From positions 1 through 33,051 of the forward strand of contig NZ_CANPWG010000034.1 in NCBI RefSeq assembly GCF_947581915.1: a stretch of DNA of 33,051 nucleotides, read 5' to 3'. Below, one piece after another: positions 26,706 to 29,175 of this stretch; the stretch's first letter is position 1; every line of letters starts with the position of its first letter. Origin of the DNA: Candidatus Palauibacter scopulicola (GTDB lineage Bacteria; Gemmatimonadota; Gemmatimonadetes; Palauibacterales; Palauibacteraceae). The notes below the pieces were generated by a model. That model saw only the letters and a list, made by a program, of their open reading frames with translations, did not search any database and was not told where the DNA came from. Both the position numbers and the translations under genes were made by a program.

Positions 26706-27842
26706 GTGCGCTATCTCGGGAACAAAACGAAGCTCGTCCCCTTCCTGCTGGAGACCGTGGACGGGTTCCAGGAGACGCCCGGCGTCGCCTGCGACCCGTT
26801 CGCCGGCACCGCCAGCGTGTCGGCGGCGCTCAAGGAGAAGGGCTGGCAGGTCCATGCGGGCGACCTGATGGCGTCCTCCTACGCCCTCCAAGTCGCGCGG
26901 GTGCAACTCGACGCGGCCCCGCGGTATCCCGCCTCGCTCCTCCCGGCGGCGGCCCGCAACGGAAGGCGGGAGATCGGCTACCACGCCCTGCTCGAGGGGC
27001 TGGCCGAACTCGATGATCCCGGCGGCGACGGTAGCGGTGATCTCCGGGACGGGGAGGAGCCGGACGGCGGGTTCATCTCCGAGCACTACTCGAGCGACGA
27101 GACCGCCGGGCGGGCGCACGGGCGCATGTACTTCTCCCCCGAGAACGGACGGAAGATCGATCGGGTCCGGAGGCGGATCGAGCGCTGGACGCGCGGGACC
27201 TCCCACAGCGAAGCCGCGGCCCAACTCCTCATCGCGACGCTCATCGAGGCCGCCGACCGCGTGGCGAACACGACGGGCGTGTACGCCTCCTTCGTGAAGA
27301 CGATGCAGCCGAACGCCCTGCGCCCGCTCGAGCTTCGCCCCATCGACCCGACGCCGCGCGAGGAAGGCGCCGGCGCCTGCAGCGCGTTCCGCGGACCCGC
27401 CGCCCGCCTCCTGGAATCCATCGGTCCCGTCGATCTCGTCTATCTCGACCCCCCTTACAACGGCCGGCAGTATCCCGCGTATTATCACATCCCGGAACTC
27501 CTCGCGCTCGGCTGGGCCACGCCGCCCGAGATCCGCGGAAAGACGGGACTCATTCCCGACGAGGCGCTGCGCTCGGACTGGTGCCGGAAGCACCGGGCCC
27601 CGGACGCGCTACGGGAGGTGCTGGAGGCCGCGGACGGACGCCACATCCTGTTCAGCTACAACGACGAGGGGCACCTGGACCGCGCCGCCATCGAAGCGGC
27701 GCTGCGCGAACGCGGCCTGCCCGACACCTACGCCTTCCACGACCGGCCCTACCGCCGCTACCGGAGCGACGCGGACGGCCCAGGGCGGAGCTACCTGCGC
27801 GACGACGTGCGGGAACACCTCCACTACGTGAGGTGCGCGTGA
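26706..27842 (+). CDS. D12-class N6-adenine DNA methyltransferase
   Basis: 378 residues. The N-terminal motif X is RYLGNKTKLVPFLLETV, the AdoMet-binding motif I is CDPFAGTASVSAAL (29-42), and the catalytic motif IV is YLDPPYNGRQYP (DPPY 248-251); this order is typical of D12/alpha-type adenine methylases. A region of about 100 residues between (90-190) would hold the target-recognition domain. The GTG at 26706 is chosen because it opens directly on motif X and has a -10-like TATTCT 5 nt upstream. No restriction endonuclease is adjacent, so it may be an orphan (regulatory or repair-marking) methylase; the recognition site is unknown. Its stop overlaps the next start (GTGA). Confidence 0.88.
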   Translation: MRYLGNKTKLVPFLLETVDGFQETPGVACDPFAGTASVSAALKEKGWQVHAGDLMASSYALQVARVQLDAAPRYPASLLPAAARNGRREIGYHALLEGLAELDDPGGDGSGDLRDGEEPDGGFISEHYSSDETAGRAHGRMYFSPENGRKIDRVRRRIERWTRGTSHSEAAAQLLIATLIEAADRVANTTGVYASFVKTMQPNALRPLELRPIDPTPREEGAGACSAFRGPAARLLESIGPVDLVYLDPPYNGRQYPAYYHIPELLALGWATPPEIRGKTGLIPDEALRSDWCRKHRAPDALREVLEAADGRHILFSYNDEGHLDRAAIEAALRERGLPDTYAFHDRPYRRYRSDADGPGRSYLRDDVREHLHYVRCA

Positions 27843-28891
27843 GCCGCGCGCGCCGGAGAACCGCGCTCGTGCTGCTCCTGCTGTGCGCGGGCGGCTGCTC
27901 GCCGGCGTACGTCCTGCGCGCCGGCTGGGAGGAGGCCCGCATCCTCGCGGCGCGCCGCCCCATCCGGGCCGTGATCCACGACACGACCGTGGCCCGCGAG
28001 ACCCGCGACAAGTTGCGGCTCGTCCTCGACGCGAGAGACTTCGCGGAACGCGACCTCGGGCTGCGCGCGGGGGCCAGCTACGAGTCGTTCACACAGCTCC
28101 ACCGCGACACGCTGGTCCTGATCGTGCTCGCCGCCCCGGAGTTCGATCTGCGTTGGAAAACGTGGTGGTTCCCCATCGTCGGCGACGTCCCGTACAAGGG
28201 ATACTTCGACTTCGACGACGCCCGCGCGGAGGCCGCCAGCCTGGCCGAGGAAGGCTACGACGTCTCGGTCCGGCCGGTCTCCGCCTTCTCGACGCTGGGT
28301 TGGTTCCCCGACCCCATCATGTCGACGACGCTGCGCCTCGACAGCCTCGGGATCGTCGAGACGGTGATCCACGAGATCACGCACAGCACGTACTTCCCCA
28401 CCGGCCAGGCCGATTTCAACGAGAGCTTCGCGAACTTCGTCGGGTACCGCGGCGCCATCGAGTTCTTCTGCGAGGCGGTGACGGACGAGAGCGCCTGCGT
28501 GCGGGCGCAGTGGAGGTGGGAGGACACGCGCCTGTTCGGCGACTTCTTCCATTCCATCCTCGCACCGCTGGAGGAGGTGTACGCCTCTGCCCTGCCCGAC
28601 GAGGCGAAGCGGGCGGCCAAGCGCGAGGTGTTCGAGGCGGCGGCCCAACGCTTCGAGACGGAGTACAAGCCGCGGCTGCACGCGCAGTACAGATCGATCG
28701 ACCCGGACGGGCTCGACAACGCGTGGATGATCTCGCGCCTTCTCTACTACACGAGACTGGATGACTTCGAGCGCGTGTTCGAGTCGCACGGCGGCCTGGT
28801 ACCCTCCGTCCAGGCGCTGATGCGGGAGGCCGCGGACGGCGACCCGTGGGAGGCCCTGACGCGTCTGCTGGATCGGGAGACTTCGAGATGA
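27839..28891 (+). CDS. lipoprotein zinc aminopeptidase-like protein (PF10023 family)
   Basis: 350 residues from a GTG overlapping the methyltransferase stop. Lipoprotein signal LVLLLLCAGGC, with Cys20 as lipidation site. It continues SPAYVLRAGWEEARIL, typical of the putative-aminopeptidase family PF10023 (opening C.p.YylQa..GQ). The zinc-binding HEITHSTYF (HExxH, 178-182) is followed by the third ligand region FNESFANFVG (Glu195). It is membrane-tethered in the periplasm and probably a metallopeptidase. The stop overlaps the next gene (ATGA), so three unrelated-looking genes form one operon. Confidence 0.85.
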   Translation: MSRARRRTALVLLLLCAGGCSPAYVLRAGWEEARILAARRPIRAVIHDTTVARETRDKLRLVLDARDFAERDLGLRAGASYESFTQLHRDTLVLIVLAAPEFDLRWKTWWFPIVGDVPYKGYFDFDDARAEAASLAEEGYDVSVRPVSAFSTLGWFPDPIMSTTLRLDSLGIVETVIHEITHSTYFPTGQADFNESFANFVGYRGAIEFFCEAVTDESACVRAQWRWEDTRLFGDFFHSILAPLEEVYASALPDEAKRAAKREVFEAAAQRFETEYKPRLHAQYRSIDPDGLDNAWMISRLLYYTRLDDFERVFESHGGLVPSVQALMREAADGDPWEALTRLLDRETSR

Positions 28892-29175
28892 CGGAACCGT
28901 TCGCCTGTGTGCGCTGCGACCGCGACGACGGGGGCCGGATCGAGCGCCTCCCGTTCCCGAGCGAACTCGGCGAGCGGATCGTGGCCGAGATCTGCGCCGC
29001 CTGCTGGGAGGAGTGGAAGAAGCGGCAGATGCTCCTCATCAACCACTACGGGCTCAAGCTCCACGAAGCCGCGTCGCGCGAGTTCCTCTACAAGAACCTC
29101 CGGATCCACCTCTTCGGCGAGGAGGGCACCGCCGCCCCCATCGACACCGGCGCGGAAGGCTCCGTCGACTGGTAG
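28888..29175 (+). CDS. YggX-like Fe(II)-trafficking family protein with two CxxC motifs
   Basis: 95 residues starting in the ATGA overlap. Residues 22-77 (PFPSELGERIVAEI, CWEEWKKRQMLLINHYGLKL, EFLYKNLRIHLFGE) follow the YggX pattern YPGELGKRI ... W.QW...QT.LINE..L ... FLF. YggX protects iron-sulfur enzymes and may move ferrous iron. Here the single conserved YggX cysteine is extended to CVRC (7-10), and a second pair CAAC (36-39) replaces SKEA. This four-cysteine arrangement would suit a zinc or iron site and is not in the E. coli protein. It ends 11 nt from the convergent leuS stop. Confidence 0.75.
   Translation: MTEPFACVRCDRDDGGRIERLPFPSELGERIVAEICAACWEEWKKRQMLLINHYGLKLHEAASREFLYKNLRIHLFGEEGTAAPIDTGAEGSVDW

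Follow-up and report, generated by a model that had tools for sequence, protein, structure and literature searches.

The genome of Candidatus Palauibacter scopulicola (Gemmatimonadota; assembly GCF_947581915.1) codes for a relative of YggX that carries two CxxC pairs, and the question raised by this locus is what its four cysteines do in a family whose E. coli member has only the first of them, Cys7. To our knowledge, there is no settled explanation for the mechanism of YggX or for its need of Cys7. Across three publications, YggX is associated with protection from oxidative stress and a critical N-terminal cysteine is reported (PMC3989283, PMC1360075, PMC11078426). The stretch of DNA analysed, called the window here, comprises positions 1 to 33,051 of contig NZ_CANPWG010000034.1 (33,051 nucleotides) and holds the following features:

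27581..28891, + strand: upstream neighbour, putative aminopeptidase (PF10023), given by its ORF limits, the true start being probably inside
28888..28891, + strand: ATGA, seen in the sequence, in which the start codon of the yggX-like gene overlaps the TGA stop of the upstream gene
28888..29175, + strand: yggX-like gene (PF04362), 95 aa plus stop, with ATG start and TAG stop; from the ORF, profile score and codon-position G+C
28906..28917, + strand: codons of Cys7-Val-Arg-Cys10 (CVRC), proposed zinc knuckle; from the sequence, conserved in homologues
28993..29004, + strand: codons of Cys36-Ala-Ala-Cys39 (CAAC), second pair of proposed ligands, where helix 37-54 begins; from the sequence and the predicted helix
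29140..29172, + strand: C-terminal tail IDTGAEGSVDW, with the motif (I/V)D-x2-x2-G-x-(I/V) found in homologues

The G+C content of the ORF at 28888-29175 by codon position (65/44/95%) is as expected in a high-G+C genome, and we therefore take it as a real gene. Its product belongs to the PF04362 family, with 61.7 bits against a gathering cut-off of 27, and is the sole match to this profile at E <= 0.001 in its own, 96%-complete genome. The NCBIfam equivalog for YggX (NF003817/PRK05408, oxidative damage protection protein) gave 68.4 bits against a cut-off of 74, so the window protein is filed as a member of the family and not as that equivalog. The PF10023 gene (284 bits) lies directly upstream of the yggX-like gene in each of the 16 loci read from the same genus (L033-L048).

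Aligned with E. coli YggX (NC_000913), the window protein is 33% identical over 86 columns, with Cys7 common to both, Cys10 standing for Leu10 of E. coli, and CAAC at 36-39 standing for SKEA (35-38 in E. coli numbering), where the one-residue offset comes from a loop indel. The core of YggX is kept (ELGxRI, two Trp, Gln, LIN and the LFG end) and the cysteines follow the layout C7-x2-C10-x25-C36-x2-C39. The initial annotation of this DNA had described a retained Cys7, a preserved YggX core and two CxxC pairs 25 residues apart, and the alignment agrees with it on these points. The solved YggX proteins (1YHD, 1XS8, 1T07 and 2MZY) share the family profile, the predicted fold, Cys7 and the W..W, Q, IN core with the window protein, but have Leu/Phe/Tyr, Ser and Ala where it has Cys10, Cys36 and Cys39, and they also differ from it in the C-terminal tail.

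The four cysteines were present in all 30 best loci of a search of the phylum (L002-L031) and in all 30 loci of a search of the order (L032-L061, of which L032 is the window's own). Since these picks were biased to good scores, a second sample of 120 Gemmatimonadota genomes was searched with the PF04362 profile and every match was read. The gene was found in 101 genomes, and its homologues had, at positions 7, 10, 36 and 39, CCCC in 92 cases, CHCC in seven and CPCC in one, with Pro at position 10, the last one having an unreadable base. C7, C36 and C39 are thus invariant in the 101 homologues and only position 10 varies. The seven CxxH homologues appear to be mostly from one genus, in which another member has the Pro at position 10, and they may go back to one event. 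Zinc sites tolerate such a replacement of one Cys ligand by His when the remaining three stay in place. The conservation of the cysteines, which had been proposed earlier as the check on a metal site, therefore holds within this phylum.

A wider pattern scan covered one genome per species in 84,980 species and looked for the second CxxC (with the last codon fixed to TGT) and the W..W, Q, I-N core, without requiring the first CxxC. It returned 77 stretches, 76 of them YggX homologues, and 70 of these 76 were CCCC. The other six were cut by the edge of the locus (L077, L092, L112 and L116), had unreadable bases (L114) or carried the CxxC farther upstream (L135). The one stretch discarded, L086, was the sole match from Bacteroidota; it is a chance match and no homologue, and it was left out of the alignments.

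Other phyla, named after the titles of the records, were searched with a profile built from the four-cysteine form (A1). The gene was found in 106/247 genomes of Acidobacteriota, in 55/201 of the phylum of a Chloroflexi record (50 of the 55 were read, 22 being CCCC and 28 Ser-type), in 8/121 of that of the Chthonomonadaceae record (Armatimonadota; all eight CCCC) and in 23/151 of that of the Nitrosopumilus record, where all 23 were CCCC. The phylum of L083 gave 1/8 genomes, L083's own alone, and that of the Bacteroidota record gave no match in 148 genomes in a run made without a positive control. Proteobacterial sequences numbered only five, from E. coli K-12 and 4/28 records of a plasmid collection. 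JAHEKL010000197.1 (L072) is titled Gammaproteobacteria, but searching the phylum of its genome led back to the phylum of the window; the title looks wrong, and L072 was counted with Gemmatimonadota. The initial annotation had suggested a distinct branch of the family, and the occurrence of the four-cysteine form in Acidobacteriota, Chloroflexota, Armatimonadota and archaea means that it is not special to this lineage. Contamination as the origin of the archaeal copy L106 was rejected on the number of genomes of its phylum that carry the gene and on the nine archaeal rows of the tree described below, which form one group. One Nitrosopumilus-type protein reaches 29.1 bits in Pfam PF04362, above the cut-off of 27. 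In 23/23 archaeal rows (L144-L166) the loop that parts the two CxxC pairs has 19 residues, against mostly 24-25 in bacteria.

The tail motif, (I/V)D....G.(I/V) and often ended by W, was seen in 79/101 Gemmatimonadota and 23/57 four-cysteine Acidobacteriota, and in 0/80 Ser/Ala-type homologues, 0/23 archaea, 0/8 Armatimonadota and 0/22 four-cysteine Chloroflexota. Five proteins of the Acidobacteriota phylum (L187, L188, L189, L191 and L291) are fused forms in which a winged-helix-like N-terminal segment replaces the first Cys. This segment matches HTH_9 at E 3e-4 with 21.2 bits, under the cut-off of 23.4, which hints at a link to DNA or RNA. L426 (G1185:C1:155600-156700), from the phylum of the Chloroflexi record, has two Ser-type YggX domains in tandem in one open frame of 192 aa.

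The states of the ligand positions were also counted in 293 homologues together (101 from Gemmatimonadota, 106 from Acidobacteriota, 50 from Chloroflexota, 23 from archaea, eight from Armatimonadota and five from Proteobacteria). Positions 10, 36 and 39 were all Cys/His in 205, none of them in 80, and mixed in eight. The mixed cases are four Acidobacteriota whose N-terminal insert is longer (L135, L345 and L363, with a CxxC upstream of the insert, and L337, with a CxxxC), the homologue with an unreadable base, the one with Pro at position 10, and the Acidobacteriota L326 and L328, which have a half-lost site with C-x2-H and Cys36 kept and Cys39 lost. Both forms retain Cys7; the exceptions are five Ser-type rows of Acidobacteriota, the five fused-form rows and the four rows with the insert, where it falls in an alignment gap. 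The Ser-type proteins that lack it (L332, L333, L334, L351 and L352) do so even though this residue is reported as essential in S. enterica. Four conserved cysteines, three of which come and go as a set, and a swap of Cys to His at one of them point to one metal site. Together with the predicted YggX fold, this supports what the initial annotation had called a plausible metal site, to the extent that sequences and a model can tell.

The AlphaFold2 model of the window protein (69 sequences; pLDDT 83.0, pTM 0.69) has helices at 26-34, 37-54 and 61-76, positions 17 and 36 as single bridge residues, and a C-terminal tail modelled at low confidence. Foldseek ranked the four solved YggX proteins first for this model (E 8e-4 to 5e-3), and VIA-align gave Z values of 10.8 (1YHD), 10.5, 9.5 and 8.2 for them and 2.3 for the next chain. 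C7 and C10 are in coil and the second CxxC is at the start of the long helix 37-54, so that the four cysteines of the window protein stand where the treble-clef motif needs its ligands. The window protein resembles treble-clef zinc fingers in that its CxxC knuckle precedes a helix opening with a second CxxC, but it differs from them in an additional YggX-specific helix and in the conserved WxxWxxxQ...IN core, and its zinc is a predicted one. The model of the archaeal L106 was poorer (pLDDT 76.3, pTM 0.60) and its first match was again YggX (1T07, E 8e-4); its weaker matches to ribosomal proteins, a nuclear-receptor domain and ZZ, RING and LIM domains had E >1 and were dismissed as not significant. 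Among PDB sequences, the profile picks up ShdD (7ae4, 7ae7) at E 0.05-0.06. Kaur and Subramanian (2016) place E. coli YggX among treble clefs whose solved members are without zinc (PMC4999995).

Which of the two forms is older was addressed with a maximum-likelihood tree of 132 rows and 86 columns, in which the four cysteine columns were left out; the rows had been thinned by identity within groups (thresholds of 70-95%), and those with >25 gaps were dropped. The 25 Ser-type rows (ten Acidobacteriota, ten Chloroflexota and five Proteobacteria) form one clade with support 99/98, inside a group of 74 rows (100/98) that also holds Gemmatimonadota and some four-cysteine Acidobacteriota. Outside this group branch the other four-cysteine Acidobacteriota, Chloroflexota and Armatimonadota, the Gemmatimonadota row L281 and the archaea, and the midpoint root lies on the archaeal branch. 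The tree has few columns, which drew a warning of the program, and its root rests on the archaea or on the midpoint. The four-cysteine form is probably the older state on these sequences, with Cys7 of E. coli looking like the last of four ligands, and this depends on the root. Our reading is that the ligands would have been lost mainly once and, separately and in part, in L326/L328. The initial annotation spoke of a remodelled YggX with an added Cys10 and of SKEA replaced by a CxxC at 36-39; the residues do align in that way, but the tree, rooted as above, nests the E. coli-type form as one clade that lost ligands, and the direction of the change is probably the reverse. A gain of Cys10, Cys36 and Cys39 from an E. 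coli-like YggX fits the unrooted tree, in which one branch parts the Ser/Ala rows from the rest, although neither this branch nor the number of changes is enough by itself to separate a gain from a loss. It would require three ligands to arise together and sits poorly with a nested Ser/Ala clade and with archaeal and deep bacterial rows that have four cysteines. The AU test also rejected a topology in which the 95 four-cysteine rows from bacteria group together (p-AU 0.005; the group was named after the tree had been seen), and we regard such a gain as quite unlikely.

The genes around these loci were examined as well, with neighbouring ORFs picked by length, some of which may be wrong (44/66 upstream and 44/55 downstream candidates scanned). 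An AhpC/TSA peroxiredoxin was found in 15/44 upstream neighbours scanned, and apart from it no family among the scanned neighbours was above 5/44. BLAST with one of these AhpC/TSA neighbours (E <= 1e-10) found a relative in 31 loci, all of them four-cysteine Acidobacteriota (L139 repeats the gene of L062). In these loci the peroxiredoxin gene is always upstream and on the same strand, within about 255 bases in 26 and at 620-2797 in five. It was present in 20 of the 26 Acidobacteriota loci of the pattern scan with at least 700 bases upstream (21/31 of all) and in 10/30 Acidobacteriota loci from the A1 search of the phylum, and the same BLAST found it in 0/45 other loci of the pattern scan and in 0/60 Gemmatimonadota loci (L002-L061), the window's own included. 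The support for a link to oxidative stress thus comes from some of the Acidobacteriota, and the genes next to the window's own copy give it none.

The peroxiredoxin gene adjoining the yggX-like gene in Acidobacteriota could mean that the site is a redox switch, in which oxidants would oxidise the cysteines, zinc would be released from the thiolates and the activity of the protein would change, by analogy with the zinc-redox chaperone Hsp33. Cys7 is essential in S. enterica YggX, according to the title of a work cited in PMC11078426, and this would suit such a switch. A structural zinc that is conserved would account for the sequence pattern equally well, and we hold the switch to be doubtful as the explanation of this pattern, but it may be compatible with a structural zinc and both could hold. 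CxxC pairs are able to bind zinc or iron, and rubredoxin has a CxxC ... CxxC with similar spacing; the four cysteines might then hold iron as rubredoxin does and make the protein a Fe(II)/Fe(III) carrier or an electron-transfer protein of the oxidative stress response. However, both CxxC of rubredoxin are in loop knuckles, and membership was rejected since the second CxxC of the window protein is at a helix start in the model. CxxH variants occur more often in zinc sites, and rubredoxin is absent from the listed fold matches and the listed profile matches to PDB sequences, where a missing match alone excludes nothing. The name of the family (Iron_traffic) and the weak Fe(II) binding of S. enterica YggX, reported with a Kd of about 1e-5 to 1e-6 M (PMC3989283), speak for iron, which we still find improbable; the metal is likelier to be the structural zinc of a treble clef. 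That there is no metal at all, and that the cysteines pair as disulfides or owe their conservation to something else, would agree with the retention of Cys7 alone in most of the metal-less relatives, but the spacing, the joint presence or absence of the other three and the swap of Cys to His make it very unlikely.

The explanation that we prefer, and consider likely, is that the window protein is an intact treble-clef zinc-finger YggX, of the older form, with a role in dealing with oxidants or iron; here we infer which metal is bound, that the sulphurs meet, the direction of the change and the function in this organism. Cys7 and Cys10 would form a zinc knuckle and Cys36 and Cys39, in the opening turn of the long helix that follows, would complete four ligands for one metal ion, most likely a structural zinc, which would pin the N-terminal loop to the helical core. 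In one lineage, the source of the E. coli-type YggX found in Proteobacteria, some Acidobacteriota and some Chloroflexota, Cys10, Cys36 and Cys39 would have been lost, with Cys7 usually kept. The cellular role would most likely be that of YggX, in withstanding oxidants and handling iron, and the thiolate site could perhaps be a target of oxidants or Fe(II).

That YggX is a treble clef without zinc is already known (PMC4999995). In the literature collection searched, we found no account of four-cysteine YggX homologues, their spread to archaea or a tree with a single loss, and the supplement of PMC4999995 or papers outside the collection may have them. A bolder idea, tentative and rather unlikely as a whole, treats YggX as a fallen zinc finger. 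Bacteria and archaea would share an old metal-thiolate protein, intact to this day in the window, that might work as a zinc or iron switch sensitive to oxidants, accompanied in some lineages by a peroxiredoxin; the loss of three ligands might then have left E. coli with a single essential cysteine of unexplained purpose. The family is extended here to Nitrosopumilus-type archaea. If the four-cysteine form is the older one, Cys7 would be the remnant of a metal site, and the metal-binding and metal-less forms of YggX could be compared in one knockout strain.
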